Virus record (IMG/VR): IMGVR_UViG_3300046804_002125
Coordinates: 1 to 21,600 of that record
Direction: 5' to 3' (one strand)
Length of the DNA stretch: 21,600 nt
Source: a virus
Within the stretch, counting starts at the first letter, position 1, and each line of letters opens with the position of its first letter. Shown here one piece after another: positions 1,027-18,213 of this stretch. Position numbers and translations under genes: made by a program. The notes below the pieces were generated by a model that was not told where the DNA came from, ran no database searches, and worked only from the letters and a program-made list of their open reading frames with translations.

Positions 1027-1629
1027 TCACACCTCCAGCTTTAAACCAGTTAAATCCATCTCTTCCCCGACTGTACCCACAGGGAAGGTATTAAAACTTA
1101 ATGAAATGCGTGTCTGCTCACCCTGAACCGTAGGTACCATGTGCGTTAAGGATGAAGGGAAAAGAATCAATCGGCCAGTGAATGCCTCAAACCACCATGA
1201 CTCTGAGTTATACGCATTCCAGTTATCGGTGGGAAACTTGATCTGCTGCCAGCCGTCTTTGTAAAAGTAAATCCTATCATCAGGATTGGTCTGCAAGTAA
1301 AACACGCCTGAGATGTAGCTATTGGGGTGGGCATGTTTGTGGTGATACTGACCCTGCTCACTGTAATTGCACCAGCTTTGTGTGATGCGTAGGCTGACGT
1401 TGTGCTTGGGATTGACCGTGGCTTTGAAGTATTCAGCTACGCTGTCCTCAATGAATGATCGCAGGCTTGTCATGGCCGGATTGCGAAGCACGAAGTTATC
1501 CGTGCTTGTTGTGTTGCCCATGTTAGGCCGAGTCTCAAGCTCACGCACAAAGAACATTTCCTCGTCCGTGAGTTCACGGCCAAGGTCTGCAAAACCTACA
1601 GCGGTTGGAAATAAGTTATGCAGGTTCAT
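1027..1629 (-). CDS. Putative 2OG-Fe(II) oxygenase (TIGR02466/PF13759 type)
   Basis: A 200-aa protein with the layout of the phage 2-oxoglutarate/iron-dependent oxygenase family TIGR02466 (PF13759). The N-terminus is LFPTAVGFADL. The core HKHAHPNSYISGVFYL (residues 97-112) holds the His-rich iron-binding stretch. The distal ligand is probably His163 (LTHMVP), and RISLSFN has the Arg (174) that usually binds the 2-oxoglutarate carboxylate. Length fits the family. I chose the ATG at 1629 because GAAGAGGA sits about 6 nt upstream; a TTG at 1644 would add five residues but lacks a site of its own. The substrate of this family in phages is unknown; hydroxylation of a protein or nucleotide is usually proposed. 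Here it lies among fibre and virion genes, not DNA-metabolism genes, so it may act late. Family assignment is fairly sure; activity is inference. Confidence 0.82.
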   Translation of the reverse strand: MNLHNLFPTAVGFADLGRELTDEEMFFVRELETRPNMGNTTSTDNFVLRNPAMTSLRSFIEDSVAEYFKATVNPKHNVSLRITQSWCNYSEQGQYHHKHAHPNSYISGVFYLQTNPDDRIYFYKDGWQQIKFPTDNWNAYNSESWWFEAFTGRLILFPSSLTHMVPTVQGEQTRISLSFNTFPVGTVGEEMDLTGLKLEV

Positions 1630-1699
1630 CAATATCCTCTTCAAGCATGTGAATCGCTGTATTAATACCGAGAAAGAGGTCTTCCTTTGCGTTTTCCAT
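1616..1699 (-). CDS. Possible 27-aa acidic peptide overlapping the oxygenase start
   Basis: A small frame starts at ATG 1699 and ends in TAA at 1616, encoding MENAKEDLFLGINTAIHMLE plus seven more residues (acidic C-terminus). It fills the otherwise empty 79-bp gap between the 75-aa gene and the oxygenase, and overlaps the oxygenase start by 14 nt in another frame, so its ribosomes would terminate close to the oxygenase start. The upstream sequence is A-rich but has no clear GGAG. It may be a real leader peptide coupling translation, or chance. Comparison with related genomes would decide. Confidence 0.35.
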   Translation of the reverse strand: MENAKEDLFLGINTAIHMLEEDIDEPA

Positions 1700-2868: not shown

Positions 2869-3876
2869 CTAGGTCAAACCACTGCCAGAAATCAGCCAAG
2901 TCGTAGATGTCATCTTGACCGCTGTTGCCATGCCATATTGAGCAAGACTTCGTGATCCAGTCGTACCAGCACCGGCTAAATACATCGTATCGCTTGTAAT
3001 CGCTATTGTGACAACTTGCGAGGTCATGTTGATAAACGTCAACACAGTTCCTGTTGGATACGCTACGTTTGCATTTGAATCAATCGTAAATGTTCTTGCA
3101 TTTGCGTCGGTTGAAGGATGAAAAATAACTTTTCCAGCATCACCTGCTACCGTTGTATATGCTGCTGATTGCGAGTTTATTGGAGCATTGATATAGCCCA
3201 ACGTTTGATCAATAGATGCTGCCGTAAACCCTGTGGCAGATGGGTCTGGAAGTCCTAGTGCACGATTAGCCGCAAGCGTCGAAGGCGCAAGCAATGAAAC
3301 ATAATTAGTTCCGTTGTCCGTATCTTCATACAACCGCAAATCAGCAGGGCCAGATGATGTACCACTGACATTTACCGTACCAACAAACGTACCTACTCCA
3401 TTATCATCGACACTTGCTGATGAACTCTGTATAACACTACCAGTTACCCCATCAAAACGTGTAATTGCATTGTCAGTAGCGCTACTTGGGCCGGTTACGC
3501 CGCCTGACTTTAATCCGCCCGATGATGAAAATGTCCCATCAAGCGTCCAAGTATCATTAGGGGCTAACGTAACTTTGGCAATTTGTCTTGTAGTTGATCC
3601 TGATGAGTTGTTATAAGTAATGGTTACCGTAACAGCAGCCGTATCTTTATTTTGAATTGTGATCCATTTGATGACGCGCTGCGTTGATGAACCTGGAGAT
3701 GCAACAAGCGTAACGGCAGATGTACCATTTAATGCGCCATCAGTAGCTCCTTCCGTTAAAGAACTAGAAGTGCTATCAGCCCATGCAGCCGTAAATTCTG
3801 GGTTGTTTGTCGCGGCAGCGCCCGACATCACAGCCTGAATAGTTTTAGTAGTTGAGTCGAGAACTAAAGTTGCCAT
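2869..3876 (-). CDS. Tail fibre protein
   Basis: A 335-aa fibre-type protein. Residues 1-110 form a beta-rich N-terminal domain (KWITIQNKDTAAVTVTITYN) that may attach to the tail or to another fibre. The middle contains ATDNAITRFDGVTGSVIQSS, a motif very common in fibre stalks of environmental phages, then ADLRLYEDTDNGTNYVSLLA. The C-terminal 110 residues (LGYINAPINSQSAAYTTVAG onward) form a beta domain resembling the C-terminal part of the 232-aa protein at 6132-6830 (both have an AYT...D..K motif, a central ...TSDTMYLAGAG-like strand and an ...ISGSG end). AGGAAA is 6 nt before the ATG. No enzyme motif is visible. It lies between the frameshifted long fibre and the polyglycine protein. A structural role in adsorption is well supported; the exact position in the tail is unknown. 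Confidence 0.8.
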   Translation of the reverse strand: MATLVLDSTTKTIQAVMSGAAATNNPEFTAAWADSTSSSLTEGATDGALNGTSAVTLVASPGSSTQRVIKWITIQNKDTAAVTVTITYNNSSGSTTRQIAKVTLAPNDTWTLDGTFSSSGGLKSGGVTGPSSATDNAITRFDGVTGSVIQSSSASVDDNGVGTFVGTVNVSGTSSGPADLRLYEDTDNGTNYVSLLAPSTLAANRALGLPDPSATGFTAASIDQTLGYINAPINSQSAAYTTVAGDAGKVIFHPSTDANARTFTIDSNANVAYPTGTVLTFINMTSQVVTIAITSDTMYLAGAGTTGSRSLAQYGMATAVKMTSTTWLISGSGLT

Positions 3877-3885
3877 GCTTATTTC

Positions 3886-4113
3886 CTATGACAAAATCCA
3901 AGCAAAGTTTTTTGCAATACTGCTTCCTCCACCTGACGCTGTAGCCCACGAAAGTGTTCCAGTGCCATTGGTAGAAAGAAACTGACCGTTTGAGCCATCA
4001 ACGCTTGGCAAAGTCCATGTTACGTTGCTTGAAACTGTGGCTGGGCCTTGAAAAGCAACATAATTTGAAGAATCTGAATCAGAAAATCTTACGTCGCCCT
4101 GCGCATTGAGTGT
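3886..4113 (-). other. Out-of-frame C-terminal part of the long tail fibre (-1 shift)
   Basis: Directly after the annotated end of the long fibre, the -1 frame encodes 75 residues that look exactly like a fibre C-terminus: TLNAQGDVRFSDSDSSNYVA, then ATVSSNVTWTLPSVDGSNGQ, and FLSTNGTGTLSW, ending ...KNFAWILS and TAG at 3886. This stop lies just ahead of the ribosome binding site (AGGAAA) of the next gene, so the reading frame fills the gap perfectly. There is no ATG or GTG in this frame and no Shine-Dalgarno, so it is not an independent gene. The -1 frame is open upstream at least to a G5 run (minus strand) at 4147-4151, so the shift can lie anywhere between there and about 4113. Either one base is missing (mutation or sequencing error) or a programmed frameshift makes two fibre forms. 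Confidence 0.8.
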
Positions 4114-5768
4114 AATGTTGTAAATATTCCTGCTGCTGGCGTTGTACCCCCAACAGTTCCATTGATATTGATGCTGGCAGTGCCAGTTAAATTAGTAACG
4201 GTTCCTGATGTTGGAGTACCTAGTGCGCCACCATTTACAACAAATGCACCTGCCGTACCTACATTTACTGCAAGCGCTGTAGCTACATTCGTTCCTAAAC
4301 CACTAACACCTGTTGAGATTGGCAGACCGGTTGCATTGGTTAAGGTGCCAGAAGAAGGGGTTCCTAATACACCGCCGTTTACAACGACAGCGCCAGCAGT
4401 TCCAACATTGACTGCCAATGCAGTAGCGACATTAGTGCCAAAGCCTGATATGTCAGTGCTTAGCGCAACCTGTGTCCAGGCAAATGCAGTGCCGTTCCAT
4501 TTCAAGAACCTGTCTGCCGTCGTAGGCGCAGTAACAAAACTCGTGGAGTTGATCGTATCTTGATACAACAACTGATTAGCGGCACCGCCTGCAATATCAG
4601 CGGCTGAGGTCGCTGAACCAACGGTTACGGTTGATGGTGCTACGTTCTCCCAGTACGGGCCTGTAGAGTCGTATTGAAGTAGATCACCGTTTGCTACGCT
4701 TGTGATGCGCACATTGTGCAGCTCATCAAGCTCCCATCCGTTGTTAATGTTAAGAAAGAGTTCGCCTGACGACGAATTGACTTTAATAACCCAACCTAAA
4801 AATACCGTGTTAGCAGGTGCTTGAGGTCTGGTTGCTGTAAATCCACCAGCAGTTTGCGATAGGTAAACTGGATCGCCAGCCGTAAAACCATTGGTATTAA
4901 CACCACGTACTGGGCCAAATGTAGCAATAAAACCTTCAGCGCCAGCGCTGATCGATTCAATTACAACGCCAAGTGTGGCAGCAGAAAGTGGTTCACTATC
5001 GGCATCGGCAAGCGTTACAGCGGGACGTTGACCTTGAGCGCCATTGACTGCAACAACCTGGCCGACTGTAAGCGTACTTCCACTATTGTTGTAAACAAGA
5101 ACTACGTTTTCCTGCCCGATCTGTACGTCAGCGTTGCCGCCTTTTAGGCCAAAAGCAAGCGCACCATCCCCAGAGTCATACCAAAGTTTGCCAACCGCAC
5201 CTGTAACCGTAGCCGTGGTATCAAATTGGATGTAATCGGGTGTGCTAATACCGCCTGTAATGCTATCTAGGCTCGTAATATTGGTGTTTGCACCTGAGTT
5301 AGCAGCGCCAAACGTGTTGTAACTGATTGTTCGAGCAGCAGAGCCATTGAATGATGTGCCAGACGCATCACCAGAACCGCTGTTATTAAAGGTAACAGCA
5401 TAGGTTGTCGTACCAGAACCTCCGCCACTGACTGAGGCCCAGCTTAGACCTGATGCAGTTGTCGAATCAGCAGTCAAAACATAACTATGCGCACCAACAC
5501 CAAGCCTAATATTGTCAGTGCCATCGTAAACAATGATGTCACCTTTGGTTGTCGTAGGTGCTAACGCATCAAATGCTGCACCAGCTACCGTTTGTCCTGT
5601 GCCACCACTACCGATATTAAGTGCGCCGCCAATGGTGATCGTGCCCGATGTCGTGACTGGGCCGCCACTGGTTGTTAATCCTGTCGTACCGCCAGAGACA
5701 TTAACGTCCGTTACGGTGCCTGAACCGCCACCTCCACCTGATGTTCTAGAGACTGTCTTTAATGGCAT
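4089..5768 (-). CDS. Long tail fibre protein, reading frame broken near the C-terminus
   Basis: A 559-aa fibre protein as it stands; about 627 aa if the -1 frame continuation is included. It starts MPLKTVSRTSGGGGGSGTVT, followed by the T-I-x-I-G-G and TGQT motifs (LNIGSGGTGQTVAGAAFDAL) and TTKGDIIVYDGTDNIRLGVG, all typical of phage fibre stalks. A central domain around residues 225-345 (QENVVLVYNNSGSTLTVGQV ... GDPVYLSQTAGGF ... WVIKVNSSSGELFLNI) is a recurrent beta domain of fibre proteins. Two related units of about 36 residues follow (GTNVATALAVNVGTAGA). AGGAG is 7 nt upstream of the ATG. The frame then ends abnormally in HSMRRAT, unlike any fibre end, while the -1 frame carries the expected C-terminus. 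Function: adsorption fibre; confident on class, not on position in the tail. Confidence 0.85.
   Translation of the reverse strand: MPLKTVSRTSGGGGGSGTVTDVNVSGGTTGLTTSGGPVTTSGTITIGGALNIGSGGTGQTVAGAAFDALAPTTTKGDIIVYDGTDNIRLGVGAHSYVLTADSTTASGLSWASVSGGGSGTTTYAVTFNNSGSGDASGTSFNGSAARTISYNTFGAANSGANTNITSLDSITGGISTPDYIQFDTTATVTGAVGKLWYDSGDGALAFGLKGGNADVQIGQENVVLVYNNSGSTLTVGQVVAVNGAQGQRPAVTLADADSEPLSAATLGVVIESISAGAEGFIATFGPVRGVNTNGFTAGDPVYLSQTAGGFTATRPQAPANTVFLGWVIKVNSSSGELFLNINNGWELDELHNVRITSVANGDLLQYDSTGPYWENVAPSTVTVGSATSAADIAGGAANQLLYQDTINSTSFVTAPTTADRFLKWNGTAFAWTQVALSTDISGFGTNVATALAVNVGTAGAVVVNGGVLGTPSSGTLTNATGLPISTGVSGLGTNVATALAVNVGTAGAFVVNGGALGTPTSGTVTNLTGTASININGTVGGTTPAAGIFTTLHSMRRAT
4186..4445 (-). 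repeat. Two diverged fibre-stalk repeats
   Basis: Two copies of a roughly 36-residue unit, each GTNVATALAVNVGTAGA followed by V-V-N-G-G-x-L-G-T-P-x-S-G-T-x-T-N, lie side by side at about 4186-4302 and 4338-4445. They are almost identical as protein but differ at many third codon positions, so the duplication is old or the two copies were acquired from related fibres, and recombination has not homogenised them. Confidence 0.75.
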
Positions 5769-5781
5769 CAGTGGCTCCTAA

Positions 5782-6123
5782 TCAGAGTCCGTCACCTGGG
5801 GTGATGTAAATCGCTGCCGCACTTGATGAGGTGATTGCAGTGAAGTAAGCGTTTGGCGGAAACGTGAGAATTTCATCAGTTCCTGCAAGCAAAGGCAAGA
5901 CTGTTTTGCTATTCGAGCCAGAACCTGTCGGAATAACACAATTGCTGTCAGCCGTTGCTGCATCCATTGCAAAGGACAGGAAGGCTGTAACAGCGCCATC
6001 GTTGATGACTCGATACTGATTGCCGCCAAGCGTGGTTGATGGCACTTGCACCGAGGAAGGGGCAGTCGTTGCCGCCGTGATCTTAACGGTCTTGCCAGAA
6101 ATGGTAAATGCTTGGATTCCCAT
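5782..6123 (-). CDS. Small beta-rich structural protein (113 aa)
   Basis: A 113-aa protein starting MGIQAFTISGKTVKITAATT. It reads as alternating beta strands and Gly/Ser turns (YRVINDGAVTAFLSFAMDAA, ILTFPPNAYFTAITSSS, IYITPGDG), with one Cys and no enzyme motif. The pattern suits a small beta-sandwich virion protein such as a fibre base or decoration protein. AGAGGT lies 5-6 nt before the ATG. It sits between the 232-aa fibre-like gene and the long fibre, so it may connect or cap fibres. I do not recognise the family. Confidence 0.72.
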   Translation of the reverse strand: MGIQAFTISGKTVKITAATTAPSSVQVPSTTLGGNQYRVINDGAVTAFLSFAMDAATADSNCVIPTGSGSNSKTVLPLLAGTDEILTFPPNAYFTAITSSSAAAIYITPGDGL

Positions 6124-6131
6124 GTTTACCT

Positions 6132-6830
6132 CTATGTCGTCACTGAACCGCTAACTATGCAAACAGTGCTACTTAAAAACAATACTGCTGCCACACCACG
6201 AGGATTGATCGTCAATGTGGCCTGGTCGCCGTCTTGACCTGCTAAATACGCCGTTGTAATAGAACAAGTGATTGTTGCAGTAGCGCTTGTGTTATTCACA
6301 ATACCAACTACGTCACCATTCAAAAACACAGCGTCAGGTATAACAACGCTTCCACCAGAACCAATCTCTACATACTTGGCGACATCGGTTCTTGCTAGCG
6401 TGTAAGCGGTTGTTTTAGCCCCAACAGGAGGGATGCTGTAATAACCTCCCGTACTGAGCAACAAGAACTGCGTACCGTCATAAATGATGTCGCTTACTGC
6501 TCCAGAAGGAATTGCTCCAGGGCCAAGCGCTGACCCATTGGGGTAAACAATGTTCTTAACGCCTTGGCCATTGACATTGATCGTTGATGCGCCTGTATTA
6601 GCAATACTAGTCTTGAATTGTATTCTAAGACCTGCCGTGTAAGTTGTTGTTAAACTTGAAAAAGTTACAACGTAGGCATTCACCACGCCTGTATCAACAG
6701 CGTAGTTGCTGTAAGTGTTTGCATCGTTGACCGCACCAGAAAGCGTGCTGAAGTTGCTATCAAGCTGTGACAACGGGATAGTTGTCGTCGCTGTAGCAAA
6801 GGTATTAGGTACAACAATAGGCTTAGTCAT
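6132..6830 (-). CDS. Tail fibre-like protein (232 aa)
   Basis: A 232-aa protein. The N-terminus (PNTFATATTTIPLSQLDSNF STLSGAVND) is the usual start of many phage fibre and tail proteins. Residues about 48-125 (VVTFSSLTTTYTAGLRIQFK, then ANTGASTINVNGQGVKNI and IIYDGTQFLLLS) match a widespread fibre domain in which a small carrier fold displays strands. The C-terminal 95 residues (TTAYTLARTDVAKYVEIGSG onward) form a beta domain resembling the end of the 335-aa fibre. Its ATG shares one base with the stop of the preceding 625-aa gene (TGATG), so translation is coupled and no separate binding site is needed. A fibre or fibre-anchor role in the tail is likely. Confidence 0.8.
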   Translation of the reverse strand: MTKPIVVPNTFATATTTIPLSQLDSNFSTLSGAVNDANTYSNYAVDTGVVNAYVVTFSSLTTTYTAGLRIQFKTSIANTGASTINVNGQGVKNIVYPNGSALGPGAIPSGAVSDIIYDGTQFLLLSTGGYYSIPPVGAKTTAYTLARTDVAKYVEIGSGGSVVIPDAVFLNGDVVGIVNNTSATATITCSITTAYLAGQDGDQATLTINPRGVAAVLFLSSTVCIVSGSVTT

Positions 6831-8707
6831 CAGAACCTCGCACGCAATTCATGCTCTAACTGGAATCCATTGATGACAAAGTTTGGCGTGTTCGATGTCA
6901 CCGTCAAACCAAGATACTTTCCATACTGCTGAGCATCATATTTATAAAGCTGGTAGCCCACAGAAGCCCATCCAATGGCTGTACCACTATTATTAAGCCA
7001 AGGAATGATGTCACCACTGTTATTTTGCCAGTTCACCGTGTTTGTTAGTGAAATTCCTGCACTTGAACGGTTCTCGTTATCGACCGTAATCGTCAAAATA
7101 CCAGCTTCGGTGTCAGGAACGGTCGCTTCAACGCCAAATTTCAACGCTTGTTTGTCACGAATAGGGTCATTTAAGGCCCAAAGCGCTGTTTTTATCTGTG
7201 TTGCAATGGCTTGTGTACTACTTGAGTACAGTTTAACCAGACTTGTGCCATCTGTACCGTACATATTGAGCTGACCGCCTACAGGAGCAGGTGCAATCAC
7301 TATGATTTCACCCTGATAGGTCATAAACCACTTGCGATCAAAGAAAACCGCTTGCAACTTGCGCCCTGCATACACAAACTGAAACGCAGCGCACAAAATA
7401 TTGTTAATGACGACTTGACCACCGTAAATACCAGCAGTGAAATCGATTCCTGGGAAGACACCATCTAGCGCGTCACTAATCTTGCTTGTCGTAGCACCTA
7501 CAAGTGCGTAGATACCGTACCGATTCATGAAGAAAATCGACCTAAAGTAAGCAAATATTGAATACTTGAGGTTAGAACCGATTGATGCCGAGATATTTGT
7601 GTTCGTAAATAGCGTTATACCCGTCGTACTGACACGCACATCAGAGAATACGTTGATTGAATCGGTGCCAAAGATGTACAAGAAGTTATTGGCAGAGACA
7701 ATCTGAATGATGTCGCCATGTAACGTTGCATCAGTAATTGTGATATTGCCTGCCGATACGCTTGTAAAATCGTTATAGCTGTCTGCTGCTGTGTAGTAGA
7801 TCGTACGATTCTGTGCAATCCATACCCTACCGCTAAACGATGCAATCGCAATACCAGGCTGGTTAATTCTTGTGGCCGTAGCAGTAGCGCCAGAGCCAGA
7901 ACCATTATTAACCGTCACATAAAGTAGCGTAGCCGTACCATTGGTCTGCGAACCAGAAGTGTGAACAGGGGCTGTAGAACCTGTCGTTCCAGCGACAGTT
8001 ACCATGTAGTAATTGCCACCAGACGATAGCAATGCGCCTAGTGCGACAGCAGTGCTACCTGCCCATGCTACAGAACCTTGTGAGCCGATATAAATGCTTG
8101 GCGCAGCGGTGTAACCCGTACCGTACTCGGTAATGCTAATAGATGTAACTGCTGAGCCACCAACTGTTGCGGTAGCGGTTGCTTGTACGCCACCAGTCTC
8201 ATTGGGTGGGCCGATTAAAACGCTCGGCGGCGTGGCGTAACCTGTTCCTGCTGCGGTGATAGTGATGGTTGCGACCGAACCGATCCGAACGAGATTCGTC
8301 CCGTCGAATGTAGCGTATCCATAAGTTGAGTCAATGATAAGGATTCGCTCATTCTTCCATTGGGTGATCTGAGTCGTTGATCCACTGAATGTCGAGGATG
8401 CAGCAAGCGTTGATTTAACATTTGTCGAGAGATTGACATACTCAGCGCCTCCATTCGTGAAGAAAGCAAAGAGATACTCTGAACCGCCAATGTTGCCTTG
8501 GCCCATGTAGTAGACCGTGCCACCCCATGTAATCGAACCAACAGCCGTTTGCTTGCCAACCACCTTCAAATTGCCAAAACCAATGGGCATGACGTTCTCT
8601 AGCCATGCAAATTCAGTCTCTTGAATCGAAGTGCGGTTCGCCTTGGTATTGATACCCTTAAAGTCTTTGACAACCTGATACGACTTTTTTTGTTCAGTCG
8701 CGGCCAT
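6830..8707 (-). CDS. Tail nozzle/stabilisation-like protein
   Basis: A 625-aa protein starting MAATEQKKSYQVVKDFKGIN, then TEFAWLENVMPIGFGNLKVV. The D-F-x-G-I-N ... L-x-N-V-x-P-x-G-x-L pattern at the N-terminus is characteristic of podovirus tail proteins that form the nozzle or plug the channel (P22 gp10-like stabilisation proteins and related beta-propeller tail proteins). The interior has repeated Gly-rich strand units (GTGYATPPSVLIGP and GTGYTAAPSIYIGS are a clear internal pair), then segments such as RIWIAQ-like VWIAQNRTIYYTAADSYNDF typical of propeller blades. No Shine-Dalgarno is evident before ATG 8707; the gene starts 2 nt after the adaptor stop, suggesting reinitiation. The position directly after the adaptor supports a role as the distal tail tube or nozzle. 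Confidence 0.75.
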   Translation of the reverse strand: MAATEQKKSYQVVKDFKGINTKANRTSIQETEFAWLENVMPIGFGNLKVVGKQTAVGSITWGGTVYYMGQGNIGGSEYLFAFFTNGGAEYVNLSTNVKSTLAASSTFSGSTTQITQWKNERILIIDSTYGYATFDGTNLVRIGSVATITITAAGTGYATPPSVLIGPPNETGGVQATATATVGGSAVTSISITEYGTGYTAAPSIYIGSQGSVAWAGSTAVALGALLSSGGNYYMVTVAGTTGSTAPVHTSGSQTNGTATLLYVTVNNGSGSGATATATRINQPGIAIASFSGRVWIAQNRTIYYTAADSYNDFTSVSAGNITITDATLHGDIIQIVSANNFLYIFGTDSINVFSDVRVSTTGITLFTNTNISASIGSNLKYSIFAYFRSIFFMNRYGIYALVGATTSKISDALDGVFPGIDFTAGIYGGQVVINNILCAAFQFVYAGRKLQAVFFDRKWFMTYQGEIIVIAPAPVGGQLNMYGTDGTSLVKLYSSSTQAIATQIKTALWALNDPIRDKQALKFGVEATVPDTEAGILTITVDNENRSSAGISLTNTVNWQNNSGDIIPWLNNSGTAIGWASVGYQLYKYDAQQYGKYLGLTVTSNTPNFVINGFQLEHELRARF

Positions 8708-8709
8708 GA

Positions 8710-9345
8710 TCAGTAGGGTGTGCTATAGGGTGTCGGAAGTCTGCGCGTCATCGTCGAAGTCAGTGCTGCTCGCACCCTTTGATCATATTGCGCCTTAAAT
8801 ATCTCAGCCTCACCATAGCTTTGTTCTTTGTACTTAGCGGTATGCGCTGCGTAGTAAGCAACAGGCGTGGTGTAAGGGTCAAGAATGGTTTCAACCGATG
8901 AATTTGAAGTCAAAGGCAGTGGCAATACCACTGTATCAACCTCAATCACATAGTTCTGATCGGGTACAGGGCCAAAAAAGATTGTTGATTGGCCGTAAAG
9001 ACTGAATGCAACGGGTCTACCCGTATAGTTCTGCCAGAAACGCAACTGAGCGTTAAAGTCAGACCATGCCATGTAGCGCAGTGGTATGCGGGTGTTACCC
9101 CAGTACAAGTTGATGTTTAAAACATCAATCGTACGAGTTGCTTCAGGTAATGCCGAGTAATTGAGTGTCTCGACAGCATTGGTTGCTATCGATGATTGAA
9201 GGGTACGAAGGCAACCAGTATCACGAACGACACGCTCACGCGCACCGTTAATGTAGTCTGCTAACTCGGTATCTGTCCAAAAGTTACCAGCCGCATCGTG
9301 CAGAAGCCTTCTAACCTCTGTGATGTACCCAGAGTAAGTTGCCAT
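8710..9345 (-). CDS. Head-tail adaptor protein
   Basis: A 211-aa protein starting MATYSGYITEVRRLLHDAAG NFWTDTELADYINGARERVV. The opening helical pattern (xxxxVRxLLxD...FWTDxELxxYINxARxxVxxxT) is that of phage head-to-tail adaptor proteins of the P22 gp4/SU10 adaptor type, which bind under the portal ring. The middle is beta-rich (WGNTRIPLRYMAWSDFNAQL, RPVAFSLYGQSTIFFGP) and the C-terminus is a helix rich in Glu and Lys with a basic tail. Length fits the family (about 200 aa). GAGGT is 6 nt before the ATG. The gene lies between head genes and the nozzle-like protein, as expected for a connector. Confident on role from motif and position; no exact homologue named. Confidence 0.8.
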   Translation of the reverse strand: MATYSGYITEVRRLLHDAAGNFWTDTELADYINGARERVVRDTGCLRTLQSSIATNAVETLNYSALPEATRTIDVLNINLYWGNTRIPLRYMAWSDFNAQLRFWQNYTGRPVAFSLYGQSTIFFGPVPDQNYVIEVDTVVLPLPLTSNSSVETILDPYTTPVAYYAAHTAKYKEQSYGEAEIFKAQYDQRVRAALTSTMTRRLPTPYSTPY

Positions 9346-9352
9346 TCAAACC

Positions 9353-9694
9353 TCATTGGCTAGAGGCCAAGGAGCTGGACTTTTGCCCCGCCTTTCCTTT
9401 CGGATGAGGAGGGGCTACTCGCTCCACCACCAGGGCTGACAAGTGGCTGGTTTTCATTGGCTCGCGGCTAAATGCAAACTCGCCAAGACGCTTCATCGCA
9501 GCATCATAGTCCGTATTCATTTTCATCCAACCATGTCGAGCCAAATAAGGAATCTTGTTGTCATCGCCATACCCAAAGATGTGTTTTGCAACTTCTTCAG
9601 GTATCCCGATGCAGGTGTCAGGCGGGAACTCATACGGCTGACCATCAAAATGATCGATCAGTGCATGAGCGCCCTTATTGGTAACGTAAATCAC
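9353..9694 (-). CDS. Conserved-looking 113-aa neck-region protein, GTG start
   Basis: A 113-aa protein starting at GTG 9694 (MIYVTNKGAHALIDHFDGQP), with an N-terminal beta unit, a Tyr/Phe-Pro-rich loop (YEFPPDTCIGIPEEVAKHIF) and a disordered basic C-terminus rich in Lys, Pro and Ser. The GTG overlaps the preceding stop by GTGA, so translation is coupled. Small proteins with N-terminal ...F-x-G-x-x-Y-x-F-P-P...P.EVAxHIFG are often seen next to head-completion genes in phages. A role in the neck or in head completion is inferred from position only. Confidence 0.68.
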   Translation of the reverse strand: MIYVTNKGAHALIDHFDGQPYEFPPDTCIGIPEEVAKHIFGYGDDNKIPYLARHGWMKMNTDYDAAMKRLGEFAFSREPMKTSHLSALVVERVAPPHPKGKAGQKSSSLASSQ

Positions 9695-10110
9695 GCTTGC
9701 AGTATATCGCCGTAAACGTACACATCAGCCGTTGCAGCCGCACCTTGTGCTGTCGTGAGCGACAAATAAAGGTTTGGTACAGACGACTTCACCGTAATGT
9801 TGATGCTTGATGCCGTATTAAGCGTCAGATCAAGAAACAGCGTTGAACCTGTTAATGTGGAGTAAGCCTGGGAAGACGCAACAACAGCAGAGCCACCTTT
9901 GCTAGCAGCGGTATAAACGCCGCCAGCAGCCGTGGTCAGTGAAGTTGAAGCATTGGTCACAACAATCCGACGCACAATGTACTTGGACGGATTGCTAAAG
10001 ATCGTGATCATTTGATCGGCAGTCGAGTTCATGTTCGCGCCGATCAGTGTCCCAAGCAGGATACCTCCGAACTGCTGAGGTAGCAGACTACCTACTTTGT
10101 TGGCATCCAT
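9691..10110 (-). CDS. Beta-rich head/neck structural protein (139 aa)
   Basis: A 139-aa protein starting MDANKVGSLLPQQFGGILLG, mostly beta strands with Ala/Ser/Thr-rich turns (YIVRRIVVTNASTSLTTAAG, LFLDLTLNTASSINITVKSS), ending VYVYGDILQA. The fold pattern resembles small beta-sandwich capsid-decoration or neck proteins; there is no enzyme motif. GGAGTAAAGC before the ATG gives a strong binding site. It is the second gene after the major capsid protein. The specific role is not known. Confidence 0.7.
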   Translation of the reverse strand: MDANKVGSLLPQQFGGILLGTLIGANMNSTADQMITIFSNPSKYIVRRIVVTNASTSLTTAAGGVYTAASKGGSAVVASSQAYSTLTGSTLFLDLTLNTASSINITVKSSVPNLYLSLTTAQGAAATADVYVYGDILQA

Positions 10111-10122
10111 GCTTTACTCCAA

Positions 10123-10455
10123 TTACGTGTTGTAAGTACCGGTCGCTGCTTGACCACCATTGATGGTCAGATACTGCGCAGTCACGGTTCCCGATGCTGA
10201 ACTCCATTTGACGTTAACGCCATCAGAGATCACAACGCCGCCAGTGGTTGTTGACGCAGCCATGATGCTGGTAAACGTCGTACCATCCAGACTAGCCTTA
10301 ACCGAAAGGTTAGCAACGGGGAACATGATGTACAGACCGGCAGGGATAACAACATCCGTACCCGCTGCAACAGTCTGCGAACCAGCGTCAAAATAAGCGC
10401 CGTCAGAGTTTGCGGCAAGACCGCTAACAATGATTTTATTAAGTGCAAGTGCCAT
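10123..10455 (-). CDS. Beta-rich protein next to capsid, possible decoration protein
   Basis: A 110-aa protein starting MALALNKIIVSGLAANSDGA. It has repeated short strands (VIPAGLYIMFPVANLSVKAS, VVISDGVNVKWSSASG, YLTINGG) and no Cys. The V-x-x-G-x-x-V-x-I-P-A-G-x-Y motif is typical of small virion proteins exposed on the surface. GGAGTAAAAC precedes the ATG, closely matching the site of the next gene (GGAGTAAAGC), which suggests equal expression. It is immediately downstream of the major capsid gene, the usual place for a decoration or head-fibre protein; this function is inference. Confidence 0.7.
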   Translation of the reverse strand: MALALNKIIVSGLAANSDGAYFDAGSQTVAAGTDVVIPAGLYIMFPVANLSVKASLDGTTFTSIMAASTTTGGVVISDGVNVKWSSASGTVTAQYLTINGGQAATGTYNT

Positions 10456-10465
10456 GTTTTACTCC

Positions 10466-11476
10466 TTACAGGGTCAACGAGTTGTAGCCCGTTACCTTGG
10501 TCATGGCCTTGGGCTTGGTGTTTACCAATTCTGCAATGGTCAACACAGCGCCAACATATCCAATCTGCCAGTTAGGCAAGGTGGACTCAAAGCCAGTAAA
10601 GGCAAACTCAGCCTGTTCGTGAATATACATGCTCATGTAATTCGTGTTGAGCAAGTACAGGGTGCCTTCTGGGCAATACGGATCAGGATAGATCGGTACG
10701 CCAGCAACCATCAACGCACGAAACGCTGCATTGGGGCCATCTTCACCGTTGGCAAAACTCGATCCTGGCGTAATCATGTAGGTTTCTTGGCCTACAAAGT
10801 CTTGTGCCAGCAACGTCCATGTGCCAAAACCGCAAACGCCAAAGGTCGGAACCTCTGCCGAGTTCTTCACGGTACCGGAGATGTACTGAAGCAAGTTCTG
10901 ACGAGTCGGGTTAACCGAGCCAGCAGCGTATTGCTTTGACTTCCACCAGGTGTTGGTTGAACGGTTGATATTGCCGTAAGTCGCTGTACCAGTACCATCA
11001 TCCACAGCAGCGGGAAGACCCGTGAATTGCTGTGTATTGGTGGTGTTAGTGTAAAGCGCGGTTGCCATAGCATCCATCATGACGTTGGTCGCATCATTCA
11101 TGCGAGCCTCAATCAAGGGAATTACAGCGTAGTCTTGCTGAACTGCACCTTCCATACCGAGGAACGGCACGGGTGCAATCATCAGCTTGAGGTTCCACTC
11201 AGCGTTGTATGCACCTTGCTGAACAGCAGGCTGTGCAAACGAACCAGAGTAGTCCGACCACTGCGCGTTAACAAACTGGGAACCCTGAACCGGCACGGTG
11301 ACGGAAGACACACCACCAGAGGCGGTTTGTGAATTCGCCAGCAGCGCGGCAAGCAGGGGCGTTGAGTTATAAAGCTGGACAACCAGTTTGGGAATGAATG
11401 CTCTACGAGTAACGTAGGTCAGTTCATTAAACTGACTGGTGCCCGATGCTGGGAGAATACCACCACCGATAGCCAT
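10466..11476 (-). CDS. Major capsid protein
   Basis: A 336-aa protein, of usual size for a HK97-fold capsid protein without a long prodomain. It starts MAIGGGILPASGTSQFNELT YVTRRAFIPKLVVQLYNSTPLL, the N-arm and spine-like opening of many environmental-phage capsid proteins, then SVTVPVQGSQFVNAQWSD (E-loop region), a long helix (IPLIEARMNDATNVMMDAMA), and a C-terminal A-domain segment (PIYPDPYCPEGTLYLLNTNY, then WQIGYVGAVLTIAELVNTKP). The strong site AGGAGCTAAAC precedes the ATG. It lies directly after the scaffold-like gene, the canonical order. No separate protease gene is visible nearby, consistent with a scaffold rather than a cleaved prodomain. The identification rests on order, size and pattern. 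Confidence 0.88.
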   Translation of the reverse strand: MAIGGGILPASGTSQFNELTYVTRRAFIPKLVVQLYNSTPLLAALLANSQTASGGVSSVTVPVQGSQFVNAQWSDYSGSFAQPAVQQGAYNAEWNLKLMIAPVPFLGMEGAVQQDYAVIPLIEARMNDATNVMMDAMATALYTNTTNTQQFTGLPAAVDDGTGTATYGNINRSTNTWWKSKQYAAGSVNPTRQNLLQYISGTVKNSAEVPTFGVCGFGTWTLLAQDFVGQETYMITPGSSFANGEDGPNAAFRALMVAGVPIYPDPYCPEGTLYLLNTNYMSMYIHEQAEFAFTGFESTLPNWQIGYVGAVLTIAELVNTKPKAMTKVTGYNSLTL

Positions 11477-11499
11477 GTTTAGCTCCTAAAAAACAGCCC

Positions 11500-12039
11500 T
11501 TAACCTAAACCAATAGGCCGCGAACGATTACCGTTACGCAGCTCATTAAACGCAGCAGCCGCCTGCTCTCGCGCAGCGGCAACCGGATTCTTCATAAAGT
11601 TCTGGATGCCCATCTTGTTAATGACAGCCGAACCATTAAAGACCGGTGTAGGACGATCAAGCTGCTTTTCCTGCATGATGTACTGCGCAGCAGTCTCATG
11701 GTTGTTGATACCTTTTTCAACCATGATTTTTTCGATCATCTTGATGTCATCTTCGTTTTCAGCAAACCCTTTCTCTTTCAACACCGAGCGCCGTCTTGCC
11801 AGCTCTTCTTTAGCTTCCTTCTCACGAAGTCTGGCTTCCAAAGCGGCAATTTTTGCCTCTTGTGCTGCAACCGCACGGTTGGTGTGCTCTTCAATCTCAA
11901 TTTCAGGCACCGGCAAGTCAGGGTGCGCTGTTTTAGTGAGTTTTAAGAACTCACGACGAGTCTTAGGATTCTCGGCAAGCGCTTTTGCAAGTGCTGCCAA
12001 CTCATCGCGTGCATCTGGGGTTAGTGATTCGAGTGACAT
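11500..12039 (-). CDS. Scaffolding protein
   Basis: A 179-aa, highly charged helical protein just before the capsid gene. The N-terminus (SLESLTPDARDELAALAKAL) and residues about 52-92 (AAQEAKIAALEARLREKEAK) form a long coiled coil; the middle is Lys/Glu-rich (ENEDDIKMIEKIMVEKGIN) and the C-terminus (AAREQAAAAFNELRNGNRSR) is basic and likely the capsid-binding end, as in P22 and phi29 scaffolds. The lack of Cys and Trp and the low complexity fit a scaffold that guides procapsid assembly and leaves before packaging. AGGAAGGG is about 6 nt upstream of the ATG. Confidence 0.82.
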   Translation of the reverse strand: MSLESLTPDARDELAALAKALAENPKTRREFLKLTKTAHPDLPVPEIEIEEHTNRAVAAQEAKIAALEARLREKEAKEELARRRSVLKEKGFAENEDDIKMIEKIMVEKGINNHETAAQYIMQEKQLDRPTPVFNGSAVINKMGIQNFMKNPVAAAREQAAAAFNELRNGNRSRPIGLG

Positions 12040-12058
12040 GTTCAGCCCTTCCTAAAAC

Positions 12059-12238
12059 TTAGTAAACTTTCTTGGTGTCCCCAGGCTTGCTGAGGCTCAT
12101 CTTGTTACGCGACACTTTGTTAGCGCCAGACAGGCCACCAAACATGTCGTAACGAGGAGGGTTAGTGATCTGACCGTTTTGCTGCTGGTTATCCAGCGGC
12201 TTACGAATCGTTCCAGCGCGAGGCTTAAATAATTCCAT
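12059..12238 (-). CDS. Small basic 59-aa protein before scaffold
   Basis: A 59-aa frame from ATG 12238 to TAA at 12059, starting MELFKPRAGTIRKPLDNQQQ, then a Gly/Asn-rich middle (PPRYDMFGGLSGANKVSRNK) and a basic tail. GGAGCAAGC directly precedes the ATG, a good binding site, and the gene fits without overlap between its two neighbours, so it is likely real although it is short. It is net basic and probably largely disordered. It sits between the 154-aa acidic protein and the scaffold. Function is unknown; a small capsid-internal or DNA-associated protein is one possibility. Confidence 0.7.
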   Translation of the reverse strand: MELFKPRAGTIRKPLDNQQQNGQITNPPRYDMFGGLSGANKVSRNKMSLSKPGDTKKVY

Positions 12239-12247
12239 TGCTTGCTC

Positions 12248-12712
12248 CTAGATAGGAAGGGGTGGTTTTTGCGTACCAGGGACAGGTGATGCAGCCATTG
12301 CTCGCATTTCTGCCGAGGCACCACCAGCTTGAGGCAACGTCTGGATCATTTGCATGATGTCAGCCGGAGCCAATTCTTTTGCTTTGGCATCCATCTCGCC
12401 AAAGGAAGAACCAAGTTGCCGAATCACTTCGGTAAGTGCTTTCGCCTCTTTGGAATCTTCAGGAAACTTTTGGAGCGCACCCATCAACATACCCATGCCG
12501 AGCTGCACATCGATGCGGCCTTGCATCTCTTCGCCCTGCTTGGGTTCTGGTGTTGACATGGGAGAGGCCATAGGTGGCGAATCAGCGCCAGACAACGCAG
12601 GCTTTTCTGCGTCTTCCATATCCTTTTTTTCTTCACCCTCGACTTCGACTTCGACTTTCGTCTTATCGCCACCGCGAATGAGTTTCATAATCTCTTCGGT
12701 TGAGACGGCCAT
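12248..12712 (-). CDS. Acidic Met-rich protein between portal and scaffold (154 aa)
   Basis: A 154-aa protein starting MAVSTEEIMKLIRGGDKTKV with a V-E-V-E-V-E run encoded by a 6-bp tandem repeat, an acidic/Pro-rich linker (SPPMASPMSTPEPKQGEEMQ), and a helical C-terminal half rich in Met and Ala (LGMGMLMGALQKFPEDSKEA, ADIMQMIQTLPQAGG). I chose ATG 12712 because GGAG lies 6 nt upstream; a GTG one codon earlier also exists. Disordered Met/Pro-rich proteins at this position are common in podovirus-like genomes and usually have no assigned role; a scaffold or portal partner is plausible. A candidate promoter lies immediately upstream. Confidence 0.72.
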   Translation of the reverse strand: MAVSTEEIMKLIRGGDKTKVEVEVEGEEKKDMEDAEKPALSGADSPPMASPMSTPEPKQGEEMQGRIDVQLGMGMLMGALQKFPEDSKEAKALTEVIRQLGSSFGEMDAKAKELAPADIMQMIQTLPQAGGASAEMRAMAASPVPGTQKPPLPI

Positions 12713-12731
12713 CACTTACTCCTTTGCGCGG

Positions 12732-12760
12732 TTTGTAAGCGTTTACTCACTTGTTGTCAA
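12732..12760 (-). promoter_or_regulatory. Candidate sigma-70 promoter for the capsid genes
   Basis: On the minus strand a perfect -35 box TTGACA (12755-12760) is followed by a 17-bp spacer and TACAAA (12732-12737), which matches TATAAT at four of six bases. A start would fall near 12725, so the leader before the 154-aa gene would be short, about 13 nt. A near-palindrome GTAAACGCTTAC overlaps the spacer and the start of the -10 region, so a regulator could act here. It lies in a gap with no gene other than the preceding 15-codon frame, directly upstream of the scaffold/capsid block. Presence of the boxes is seen; use is inference. Confidence 0.45.
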
Positions 12761-12762
12761 GT

Positions 12763-12810
12763 CTAGCGACGCGAAGGACGCGCACGACGAAACATTTTGC
12801 GTTGATACAT
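12763..12810 (-). CDS. Possible 15-aa Arg-rich peptide
   Basis: ATG 12810 to TAG 12763 encodes MYQRKMFRRARPSRR: 7 of 15 residues are Arg or Lys. AAAGG lies 7 nt upstream, overlapping the end of the 57-aa gene, so the spacing is right for translation. Arg-rich mini-proteins can bind nucleic acid (the microvirus J protein is an example in a different group). Alternatively it is the tail of the 57-aa protein reached by a +1 shift at AAA-AGG (rare Arg codon), which would give ...SAGKGIDMYQRKMFRR. Either is unproven. Confidence 0.4.
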   Translation of the reverse strand: MYQRKMFRRARPSRR

Positions 12811-12811
12811 A

Positions 12812-12985
12812 TCAATACCTTTTGCCAGCAGAACGGTAAGCCGTCCGGTTCATGGGTGCTCGCTGATACTGCAAGCGAGGTGCTTTATTCATTTCACGCA
12901 AGTCCGTTTCCGTTACGCGAGGTTGATCACCTTGTGAACGGTAGGAATTTTGCATATTGCTTGACGATTCACTGTTTTCGTTCAT
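12812..12985 (-). CDS. Small polar 57-aa protein after portal
   Basis: A 57-aa frame starting MNENSESSSNMQNSYRSQGD and ending NRTAYRSAGKRY. It begins at ATG 12985, which overlaps the portal stop (ATGA), with CGGAGG 5 nt upstream, a strong binding site. The protein is very polar and disordered, with a basic C-terminus. It is clearly placed as a coupled gene downstream of portal. Function is not known. It ends just before the 15-codon Arg-rich frame and might be extended into it by frameshifting. Confidence 0.7.
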   Translation of the reverse strand: MNENSESSSNMQNSYRSQGDQPRVTETDLREMNKAPRLQYQRAPMNRTAYRSAGKRY

Positions 12986-14607
12986 AACGCCTCCGGTTGA
13001 GCAGCACTTTCAGGCTGTTGCTGGGCTTGCATCATTTGAGCAGATTGTTGCGCTTCTTGCATCTTACGCAAATCTTCTTTCAATTGTTGTTTCATGGGTG
13101 GTTCAAGGATGTCAATGAGCCTTTCTTTGGTAATTGCGCCACGATCTGCTAGCGCAAAGGCCAAAGCACGCAAATCTTCGGTAAAGATAGGCGAATTGCT
13201 GTGAGCATCCACTTTCACCACAAAATCGTCGGTAAATTGGCCTGCAATGAACTTATTTTGGTCTAAATCACGATAAGAACGGGCTGAATAGACCTGCATA
13301 CACTTCAAATAGAGCGTTGCCATCTTTTCTAGCGCATCTTCAACGATTAAAGCGCGTTTTTTAGCCCTTGAAGAGCCTAAACGTGCCAATTGTGAAGCAT
13401 GACCAGCACTTCTAACGCCTGATTCGCCCCTACCTTGCAGCACATTCACAATGCCAGAGGCTTCTTCAAACATTTTGTCGATCTGATCAATCTCTCTAAA
13501 GAGATCATTGGGTATCGATGGCGCTAATTGCTCAACTTTCGCGTTCGGCATGTCGGTTGCAAGCAAGCCAGCAGCACGATTAAGCGCAAAATTCTTCTCA
13601 TCAAGCAATCCTGTAAAGCCAATAAGCGCTGTAGGCGGTGCTACTTGCTTAGAAAGCAGGTCAAGAATTTCTGCCATGCGTTTATTTCGCATGTCTTGCA
13701 GGAAAACAAGCCTTCCAACCTCAGAGATACCCCAGTAATAGTCGTACTGAGGTGTTGGGCAAATCTGTACAAAGGGCAATTCACCCTTTAAGAACATGCT
13801 TGCACCTGGCCTGTCATACACAACGACGTTAGGATCGGCAATGGTTACGCACTGATAGTCTTCGGTGTCGTCATTCCAGACCCATAACTCCGTCATCTTG
13901 ATGGTTTCTTCACCCACCGTTGGCTTATAGGTCTGCATCCCAGCGATATTGAGGTTCACATTCCCATACATCGTGGGGTCAGTAGCCGAAAGAATCAGAC
14001 GCTGAATGCCATCAGGTACTTGAGACTGCTGCGATTCACCTATTTGCACCCGCGCAAAGATCGCATCTCGATTGGGGTGCGAGTAAAGACGAGCTTGCAG
14101 TTCGCTCTTTGTGATGTAGTAAATCTGTACGAGCGCTTCTTGCCTATCGGTGTAGGGCGTATCTTCGCGCAGCACACCCATCAAGCGTGGATCAACCATG
14201 TAAGGGTGCATACCCTTTTTAGGAATGAGCTTGATAAAGGTGGAGTTGTAGCAAAGCGCCCAGTTAAGCGCTTGAGCAAAGACCTGATCAGCGTTGGAGT
14301 TCAGCCAGTCATCATTCAATGCGCCAGTGAGCGAAGGAATCATGGACTGATAGCTAGGTTCTACTGAGGCACCAAGCGTGATGGAAAAGCGTGTCGTTTC
14401 TGCCGAGTAAAGAAACGAAGAGAGCTGATCAATGTGAGGGTAAATCTTGTTGTAGTAGGCGGGCGGTGCATCAATGCCTGCTCCAAAAAGATAGTAAGAG
14501 CGCAATGAATCGTATTCGCCAGTCCTTGATTGGATACTGACGGAGCATTTCTCCACTAAGTCATAGTAAAACTGCTCACGCTCAACCAAATCTGTTGGGA
14601 TTTTCAT
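12982..14607 (-). CDS. Portal protein
   Basis: A 541-aa protein with portal-like composition and position. It begins MKIPTDLVEREQFYYDLVEK, then DSLRSYYLFGAGIDAPPAYY NKIYPHIDQLSSFLYSAE, the start of many podovirus portals. Central beta segments (YGNVNLNIAGM, KMTELWVWNDDTEDYQCVTI) are followed by helix-rich LVFLQDMRNKRMAEILDLLS KQV and EASGIVNVLQGRGESGVRSAG, the region lining the channel. The last 27 residues are Gln/Met-rich, as is usual for a disordered portal tail. Length (about 540 aa) fits. It is ATGA-coupled to the preceding 143-aa gene, with no strong site of its own. It forms the dodecameric DNA channel at a capsid vertex and docks the terminase. Confident from context, order and pattern. 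Confidence 0.85.
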   Translation of the reverse strand: MKIPTDLVEREQFYYDLVEKCSVSIQSRTGEYDSLRSYYLFGAGIDAPPAYYNKIYPHIDQLSSFLYSAETTRFSITLGASVEPSYQSMIPSLTGALNDDWLNSNADQVFAQALNWALCYNSTFIKLIPKKGMHPYMVDPRLMGVLREDTPYTDRQEALVQIYYITKSELQARLYSHPNRDAIFARVQIGESQQSQVPDGIQRLILSATDPTMYGNVNLNIAGMQTYKPTVGEETIKMTELWVWNDDTEDYQCVTIADPNVVVYDRPGASMFLKGELPFVQICPTPQYDYYWGISEVGRLVFLQDMRNKRMAEILDLLSKQVAPPTALIGFTGLLDEKNFALNRAAGLLATDMPNAKVEQLAPSIPNDLFREIDQIDKMFEEASGIVNVLQGRGESGVRSAGHASQLARLGSSRAKKRALIVEDALEKMATLYLKCMQVYSARSYRDLDQNKFIAGQFTDDFVVKVDAHSNSPIFTEDLRALAFALADRGAITKERLIDILEPPMKQQLKEDLRKMQEAQQSAQMMQAQQQPESAAQPEAL

Positions 14608-15035
14608 TGCTTTATCTGCAAGTTTTCGTGATCTTTCATCACTACACCAGGTCTGGGCTTCGCCAATGTTACACCTGAGTTCCTGATTGCGGCTAGCCCA
14701 CCAACAGTTTCATCCCGAATCGGATTGAGGTTGTACTGCTTGGCTTGATCAGGCGAACCCCATTTCACACTGAATGGGTTCTCAGCCATTTGCTTTTGCT
14801 GAGCATTCAATAAAGCATGAGGTTGCGCCTCACCCTCACGGGTGGACTTGATGTCACTCATGCCGTAATCCTTGGCGAGTTCTCTTAAGGTGCTATCGGC
14901 GTGTTTGGTGCTGTCTGATTTAAGACCAACGGGTTGTAGAAACACCAGTTGCACATCCGTGCAGCCAGCAGGACAGATAGCTTCTTTGGATTCAAAGAAA
15001 CCGTGTACGGGGCATTTGTAGTCATGTAACACCAT
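14604..15035 (-). CDS. Zinc-ribbon-like protein between terminase and portal (143 aa)
   Basis: A 143-aa protein starting MVLHDYKCPVHGFFESKEAI. Cys8-x2-His11 and Cys21-x3-Cys25 form a probable zinc-binding ribbon reminiscent of FmdB-type N-terminal ribbons; the rest is a polar, probably disordered region (LLNAQQKQMAENPFSVKWGS) ending in a basic segment. The start is ambiguous: an ATG at 15041 overlaps the preceding stop but touches its AAAGG with no spacing, whereas ATG 15035 has 6 nt spacing and is preferred. Such ribbon proteins next to the portal are common in this genome type, often without a known role; head assembly or DNA contact is inferred. Confidence 0.72.
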   Translation of the reverse strand: MVLHDYKCPVHGFFESKEAICPAGCTDVQLVFLQPVGLKSDSTKHADSTLRELAKDYGMSDIKSTREGEAQPHALLNAQQKQMAENPFSVKWGSPDQAKQYNLNPIRDETVGGLAAIRNSGVTLAKPRPGVVMKDHENLQIKQ

Positions 15036-15037
15036 GA

Positions 15038-15421
15038 TCATCCTTTCATCTGTTCATCAAGCGAACGACGACGGTAGTCCTCAGCCCTGGGGCGTATACC
15101 GACATCCAACTTAAAACCCTGACCATCAAAGGTCAGTAACGTGCGCCTCACCATCGCTGGCTTAGGCGTTTCTCGATACTCCACCCAGCGCTTCAAACCA
15201 CGCTGCATGGTGCGTATTTCACCTTTCAATACCTGGGCATAGATTTTATTGACACGACGCTGTACACGCTCTGTAAGCGGCACCTTCTGGTAGATGAAGA
15301 TGTCTCGCAAGTGATAGTGATCAACACCGCATAGCTCAGCAAAGTGAGGTAGCGAAATCCCTCGGTTCTTATCAGCAAAGAACTTGGGTAACTCCTCCAT
15401 CATTTGCGCTTTCGTCAACAT
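15038..15421 (-). CDS. HTH-like protein downstream of terminase (possible small terminase)
   Basis: A 127-aa basic protein starting MLTKAQMMEELPKFFADKNR. Residues about 20-65 (GISLPHFAELCGVDHYHLRD IFIYQKVPLTERVQRRVNKI) have the pattern of a helix-turn-helix, resembling Cro/C1-type domains. The C-terminal half is rich in Arg. It follows the large terminase (TGATG overlap, no clear binding site). One option is the small terminase, which binds DNA ahead of packaging; in other phages this gene usually precedes the large subunit, so I mark it as possible only. Another is a late regulator. The choice of ATG 15421 over GTG 15424 is uncertain. Confidence 0.65.
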   Translation of the reverse strand: MLTKAQMMEELPKFFADKNRGISLPHFAELCGVDHYHLRDIFIYQKVPLTERVQRRVNKIYAQVLKGEIRTMQRGLKRWVEYRETPKPAMVRRTLLTFDGQGFKLDVGIRPRAEDYRRRSLDEQMKG

Positions 15422-17172
15422 CACACACCAATCGCTTTCAGGTAATTGTTGATGGACTTTTGCATCACAGGCTCATCGCGCATGACTTCTTGCTCTTCAC
15501 GCTTTGATCGCGTCACCCGCAAGGCCATCAATCTTGGCATGACTTGCTCAGCAAAGGCAACGGTCGCCAAGGCTGTGGCAATCACACGATCATCTTTGTT
15601 TCTGCCATGCGCTGAAATACCACCCATATCTCGAATCACAGACTTCATCTCTTCGAGCAGCTCCATTGAACGTACGGTCAACATCTGGCGTTCAAAGTAG
15701 TCCTTAAAGTAATTCATCATCCTTTCTTTGGATGAATGGGTGGTTAAGTAACCTAATGAGTTTGATAAACCACCGAGTGAATCATTGCGCCGCCAAAGGT
15801 AGTGCGACATGTGAGCCAGCACATCCATTAAACCTCTTGCCTTGTTAGCATCATAGGTCTGTGCTTGACGCTTTAAGTTCTTGATCTCGTTTAAAACGGC
15901 TTGACCTGGCCCATTGACTTCAAGGTTCAGTGTCGAGTTCTTGTAAGCACCAGCCAAGTAGCAAATCACCCAGGCAAACTGGTAAGTGTTGAGTTCATTG
16001 GTTGCAAACTCAGCCACTTGCTCCATACCGTCTGCATAAGCACGATAAACCTGAATACAGAAGCGATCAGCCCAGTCTGAAGAACCATAAGCAGGGTCAG
16101 CACCAATGACGTAAAACGCATTGTCAATGGGTTCTTCCCAGATTTTAAGTGTGGCTAGTTTCTCTGTGCTTTTAATCAGTGTGGTGTCTTCAAAGAACTG
16201 GCCCAGTGAGAAACGATAGTAGTCTGGTAGATGTTCTTTACAGGCTCTTGCAGCGTCTGTGCAACGAGAGTGTGAGAAGAAACTCGTACCCGTCATGACA
16301 AAGGCATAGTCTTCAGTCGGTGGAAACTCTTGATACATCAAGGCTTCATCTTTTAAGCCTTCAAACATCTTCCAGCGCCACCAGGCCATTTGTCTTGAAT
16401 TGATCTCGATGCCATAGAGCTTCTTAATATCTTTTGTCCATTCCTTTTCTTCGGGGTTGAGCTTCCCATCCCAGTAAACCCGATACTCCTTGCTTTCAGG
16501 TTCAAGCATGTAGAGTTCATTGCGCCACCATCCGCAAAAGATTGCTCTCTGGGTTCTCGCTCGCTTAGCGACCGTCCACATGTCATGCCACATATTGAAC
16601 CCGCGAGCCGTACTCTCAAACAGATAAAGCCGGTTAGGGTTCTTTTCAGCTAAAGATGCCAGCAAGGAAGCTAAGCCTTCTTCATCACCCCAACTCGAAG
16701 TCTCTGTGCCATGCAGGTAAGTAATCCCTTTGCCTCGACCTAGCGACCCCTTGGCTCGCAATCCTGCTACTTGATAGAACAGCCTTGACCTATTCTTCAA
16801 AACCATCTGATTGCGGTTATGCGTCACCAGTGGAATCTTGTACTCCGGTGGCAATCCATCCATGTACATCGCTAAAGTCGTACGAAACTGATCTCGGTTC
16901 TCTTCCGTATCCGTTGTTAGCGTTCCCTGAAACCCAGGATGTTTGAAATGCCAGTAAAGATCAAGTGCAAGTGAGATCGTCGTAATCCCTAACTGCCTAC
17001 CCTTTAACACTACAAAGAAATGCACATCCTCGTTTAAGCCTTTAGCCACTTCCTCCATTACATACTTCTGGCTGCCCAGCAAACGATTCCCAAGCCTTTG
17101 AATCCCTAACTCCTTGGTTTCTACTTTGAGTTCCTTGCAAAACTTGTAGAAATGGTTCAAGTCAAAGTTCAT
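15421..17172 (-). CDS. Terminase large subunit
   Basis: A 583-aa DNA-packaging motor. N-terminal ATPase: Walker A-like KGRQLGIT (57-64, the K/R-x-R-Q-x-G-x-T form used by terminases), probable Walker B ITYLHGTE (150-157) and a coupling motif YLFESTARGFN (183-193). C-terminal RNase-H-like nuclease: VIGADPAYGSSDWADR with Asp359, LEVNGPG with Glu418, and KDDRVIATAL with Asp527/528 as metal ligands. Length is typical for TerL. AGGAAC precedes ATG 17172 by 3 nt. The gene overlaps the stop of the 52-aa gene by ATGA. It cuts concatemeric phage DNA and drives it into the procapsid through the portal. The packaging strategy (cos, pac or direct repeats) cannot be told from the sequence alone. Confidence 0.95.
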   Translation of the reverse strand: MNFDLNHFYKFCKELKVETKELGIQRLGNRLLGSQKYVMEEVAKGLNEDVHFFVVLKGRQLGITTISLALDLYWHFKHPGFQGTLTTDTEENRDQFRTTLAMYMDGLPPEYKIPLVTHNRNQMVLKNRSRLFYQVAGLRAKGSLGRGKGITYLHGTETSSWGDEEGLASLLASLAEKNPNRLYLFESTARGFNMWHDMWTVAKRARTQRAIFCGWWRNELYMLEPESKEYRVYWDGKLNPEEKEWTKDIKKLYGIEINSRQMAWWRWKMFEGLKDEALMYQEFPPTEDYAFVMTGTSFFSHSRCTDAARACKEHLPDYYRFSLGQFFEDTTLIKSTEKLATLKIWEEPIDNAFYVIGADPAYGSSDWADRFCIQVYRAYADGMEQVAEFATNELNTYQFAWVICYLAGAYKNSTLNLEVNGPGQAVLNEIKNLKRQAQTYDANKARGLMDVLAHMSHYLWRRNDSLGGLSNSLGYLTTHSSKERMMNYFKDYFERQMLTVRSMELLEEMKSVIRDMGGISAHGRNKDDRVIATALATVAFAEQVMPRLMALRVTRSKREEQEVMRDEPVMQKSINNYLKAIGV

Positions 17173-17327
17173 GTTGTTCCTGGTTCATATTCGTACTTCA
17201 TACAAGGCTTGGTTGCAATCAGCCCATCTCGGATGCAAATGAGAATCACCTCTTTGCCATCCTCATGTTCTTTTAACCCAATCTCTTGACTCCACCGGCA
17301 TGTCTCGCATGAGGGCTTCCAGTCCAT
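17169..17327 (-). CDS. 52-aa Cys-rich mini-protein overlapping two genes
   Basis: Frame from ATG 17327 to TGA 17169, starting MDWKPSCETCRWSQEIGLKE and ending ...KPCMKYEYEPGTT. AAAGGAG lies 5 nt before the ATG, the best site in this area. It contains C-x2-C near the start and two further Cys (ICIRDG and KPCMKY), a possible four-Cys zinc site. The first 65 nt overlap the end of the 72-aa gene in another frame, and its stop overlaps the terminase start by ATGA. Both overlapping genes have good starts, so both seem real. It is too short for usual gene calls. Function is unknown. Confidence 0.65.
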   Translation of the reverse strand: MDWKPSCETCRWSQEIGLKEHEDGKEVILICIRDGLIATKPCMKYEYEPGTT

Positions 17328-17481
17328 AGCTCTCCTTTAACCATAACACCGTCTTCTCTTCATCAGCCGTCAAAGAACGCTTCTTTCTCTGTTCCTGATA
17401 CCACTTCATCGCCTTATACGGATAGGTTTTATCACCCTCCGTATACCGCTTTATCCAGGCAACCTGAAACTCATGGGTCAT
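17263..17481 (-). CDS. 72-aa basic protein
   Basis: A 72-aa protein starting MTHEFQVAWIKRYTEGDKTY, rich in Lys, Arg and Trp, with a helical middle (KWYQEQRKKRSLTADEEKTV). It starts at ATG 17481, overlapping the stop of the 70-aa gene (ATGA), with GGAGGG 5 nt upstream. Its 3' end overlaps the 52-aa gene by 65 nt in another frame. It is one of three small genes ahead of the terminase. No family is recognised. A packaging accessory or an early/middle regulator are both possible; function unknown. Confidence 0.7.
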   Translation of the reverse strand: MTHEFQVAWIKRYTEGDKTYPYKAMKWYQEQRKKRSLTADEEKTVLWLKESYGLEALMRDMPVESRDWVKRT

Positions 17482-17690: not shown

Positions 17691-17771
17691 CTCGGTACAT
17701 CTCCTTATTGTCGATGTACCTATCATACAACCTAAGAACCTAAATGCGTTTTGGGAAATCAATTTTTCCTT

Positions 17772-18000: not shown

Positions 18001-18066
18001 CCCAAGCCTACCAAATAACCAACCTAACCCTTTACCTATACAAATACATCTCCCTATCTTTATATA

Positions 18067-18092: not shown

Positions 18093-18123
18093 AAGAATCT
18101 AGAGTAGTGGGTTGTAGCGTTTC

Positions 18124-18210: not shown

Positions 18211-18213
18211 AAA

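Follow-up and report, generated by a model that had tools for sequence, protein, structure and literature searches.

Programmed -1 frameshifting is known from phage tail assembly chaperones, such as gpG/gpGT of phage lambda. At the locus described here, a fibre-like gene in a viral contig is likewise distributed over two frames. Comparison with related contigs, however, makes us highly confident that both pieces derive from a single ancestral fibre gene, interrupted by a one-base indel that is private to this contig and that reflects either a mistake in sequencing or assembly or a mutation by which the fibre terminus was lost very recently.

The fibre-like gene and its two frames

The window, i.e., the whole 21,600-base IMG/VR virus record, contains the structural module of a tailed phage on the minus strand, with terminase, portal, major head protein and downstream tail-region genes. 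The other strand encodes, at 18160-19065 (+), an ArdC-like antirestriction protein with an ArdcN and a zincin-like metallopeptidase domain. The features around the end of the fibre-like gene are the following.

4089..5768, minus strand: fibre-like ORF in frame 0, 559 aa (ORF list; in-frame homology to the ORF of the relative up to GIFT)
4147..4151, minus strand: G5 run, the candidate shift site of the preliminary description (ungapped in the MAFFT alignment with the relative)
4118..4119, minus strand: single-base indel in comparison with the nearest relative that has the gene intact (1-nt gap in both the MAFFT and the BLASTN alignment)
3886..4118, minus strand: C-terminal continuation in frame -1, ITLNAQGDVRFSD...AKNFAWILS and then a stop (homology; third-position substitutions relative to the relative)
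2869..3876, minus strand: next gene, 335 aa, intact, with fibre-like repeat content (ORF reading)

The tail-region position and the repeat composition of the ORF at 4089..5768 point to a role as a fibre. Among the curated families, no significant Pfam or PHROG match was obtained for this ORF or for its -1 continuation. The C-terminal part of the ORF reads ...GGTTPAAGIFTTLHSMRRAT followed by a stop, and the translation of the -1 frame is ...ITLNAQGDVRFSDSDSSNYVAFQGPATVSSNVTWTLPSVDGSNGQFLSTNGTGTLSWATASGGGSSIAKNFAWILS, with its stop ending at 3886. The preliminary description had reported an atypical HSMRRAT ending of the fibre ORF together with a fibre-like C-terminus in the -1 frame, which is confirmed by the ORF list and the translations. 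It had also noted that the -1 segment stops just ahead of the ribosome binding site of the next gene; the segment ends nine bases ahead of the ATG at 3876. The last nine residues of the 559-aa ORF, TLHSMRRAT after GIFT, represent out-of-frame read-through. Taken literally, the sequence encodes a fibre that is about 68 residues short and has a nine-residue junk tail, and gene callers would enter a wrong C-terminus for the fibre of the window.

An uninterrupted fibre gene in the nearest relative

The nearest relative is L082 (contig IMGVR_UViG_3300043446_002306, 39,968 bp). In BLASTN, it is 95% identical to positions 5494-21600 of the window and 84% identical to positions 3263-5607. Its fibre is encoded in one uninterrupted stop-to-stop frame of 726 codons across the same junction. 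It starts with MPLKTVSRTSGGGGGSG, as the fibre of the window does, and ends in SIAKNFAWFLS, the corresponding end in the window being SIAKNFAWILS. When viral contigs were searched with the -1 segment, L082 was the top match, with 96% identity over all 75 residues. This similarity to the C-terminus of the fibre of a relative agrees with the earlier description of the -1 segment as a fibre-like C-terminus.

Other differences between the two contigs were observed as well. The L082 fibre has a second AAFDALAPTTTKGDIIV unit that is missing from the fibre of the window, a repeat-number variation near the N-terminus. The identity falls sharply from 95 to 84% inside the fibre gene, near 5500, which suggests recombination or a host-recognition module that evolves faster. 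Outside the fibre gene, the stretch 987-1832 of the window is unmatched in L082, which has approximately 120 bases in its place. This stretch contains a putative 2OG-Fe(II) oxygenase gene (1027-1644, minus strand; PF13759, E 2.8e-22) and represents an apparent gene gain or loss.

Position of the indel and coding constraint

The G5 run had been proposed as the site where the shift must occur. It is ungapped in comparison with L082, and frame 0 remains homologous to the relatives through GGTTPAAG-F-T, to about position 4119. The sole gap is at 4118/4119, some 30 bases past the G5 run in the direction of the gene. Within the approximately 20 kb of DNA that can be aligned with L082 (BLASTN), no other indel has a net effect on the frame; the remaining small gaps are multiples of three or cancel each other nearby.

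The substitutions between the window and L082 follow a different frame on either side of this gap. Of the 71 substitutions in the 480 bases upstream, 57 affect the third position of a frame 0 codon. For the 233 bases downstream, the count is 20 of 25 at the third position of a frame -1 codon, and 20 of the 23 changed codons are synonymous in that frame. As the third-position pattern switches from frame 0 to frame -1 at the gap, the ancestor encoded one continuous protein. The pattern therefore also means that selection acted on both halves as parts of a single protein, either up to a very recent point on the branch of the window or, should the indel be an error, to this day.

Starting from an ancestral fibre gene in one frame, a single base would have been lost at 4118/4119 relative to the intact relatives. 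This would bring the fibre terminus out of frame and leave a nine-residue read-through tail, followed by a stop. A sequencing or assembly error and a very recent mutation appear about equally probable as the source of the indel. The rest of the contig has no frame errors compared to L082, and a generally error-prone or unpolished long-read assembly is therefore not indicated. Moreover, the site is not a homopolymer, the place of the commonest errors, which counts against the error reading. A single error and a single real mutation would each account for one net frame error in about 20 kb. In a scenario that we consider very unlikely, a genuine indel would persist in a fraction of the phages, whose fibres would then end early and whose host range might differ.

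The C-terminal module in other contigs

The similarity of the -1 segment to other sequences is far from chance, since 288 viral stretches code for related segments, and 80 loci from this search of viral contigs were examined. In these loci, the C-terminal module shares one open frame with the upstream sequence, with L112 left unjudged because this locus begins only 11 codons upstream of the module. A stop within 20 codons after the upstream module was found in none of the 76 loci matching that module, some of which are cut by the locus ends. The motif of the window itself is fused in frame in L085 and L086 (GGTTPAAGTFTDVTLNAQGDVRF). In addition, a degenerate pattern for ITLNAQGDVRF matched nine contigs. 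The frame that contains the module is open in each of them, with D-I-T at the junction in seven and A-I-T in two. An exact search for the junction of the window, with and without extra bases, gave no other contig, and a window-specific downstream 29-mer matches the known relative only; neither search revealed a second contig from the population of the window. The indel appears to be private to the window contig. In bacterial genomes, relatives of the module are distant only, with at most 72% identity.

The module, RFADSDSSNWVAFQxPATVSSNVTWTLPSADGTNGQVLSTNGTGTLSW (L082-L161), recurs in many environmental phage proteins and in many contexts. It is apparently uncatalogued and widely shuffled, the copy in the window having no Pfam or PHROG match. 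We also considered that two shuffled modules, both containing ACATTA, might have been joined at the junction. The relatives made this plausible, since their upstream module ends most often in FTTL and their downstream module has DITLN. A search for the upstream side gave unrelated chance matches only, however, and the idea is speculative.

Alternative explanations

An error, a phase-variable fibre and a programmed shift had been put forward side by side in the preliminary description. The homologues favour the error, or a real private mutation, and the other two are contradicted. A programmed -1 ribosomal frameshift would yield short and long fibres, and it is in line with the fact that both frames are open in an overlap of about 100 nt (4194-4089) and that the -1 frame shows past coding constraint. 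However, no X XXY YYZ slippery heptamer is present in the overlap, as shown by a scan of every codon pair between 4199 and 4089. The downstream RNA (4118-4020) has no notable structure either, its fold of -18.6 kcal/mol corresponding to z = -0.86 versus shuffled sequence in a test confined to structures without pseudoknots. A comparison with related fibres for conservation of the shift site had been suggested. L082 and the other relatives encode the full, long form in a single frame without a shift, so the split architecture is not conserved, and the short form was not found among the 76 loci with the upstream module (some cut by locus ends). Finally, homology traces the frame change to a gap of one base in the DNA itself. 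Programmed frameshifting is therefore extremely improbable here.

Slippage, in the G5 run or at the position of the indel, could in principle make the fibre phase-variable. In favour of this, the fibre region has diverged further (84% identity) than the remainder of the genome (95%), in line with a change in host recognition. Yet the G5 run has no indel compared to the relative, the actual gap is in neither a homopolymer nor a short tandem tract, and the exact junction and 29-mer searches revealed no matching variant in another contig, which makes this explanation very unlikely. There is virtually no chance that the -1 frame is a separate downstream gene. Although it is conserved and ends just before the start of the next gene, in L082 it is the terminal part of a longer fibre protein, and, as had been pointed out before, no convincing start codon with a ribosome binding site can be seen in this frame. 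The separate-gene reading is refuted because relatives carry the -1 segment fused to the fibre. The preferred explanation, a one-base indel in a single fibre gene, calls for caution in general: when a metagenomic contig shows a conserved continuation in another frame, a close relative resolves the case, which here points to a single-base indel and not to recoding.

Comparison with known systems

With the -1 frameshift of the tail assembly chaperones (lambda gpG/gpGT), the window shares two overlapping frames in a tail-region gene. It differs from that system in lacking a slippery site, in not being conserved, in belonging to the wrong gene class and in having relatives that need no shift. The intact fibre-like gene of L082 differs from that of the window by its one continuous frame, in which the one-base gap is absent, and by its extra internal repeat. 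The two genes have in common their genomic setting, about 84% DNA identity in the region and their C-terminal end.
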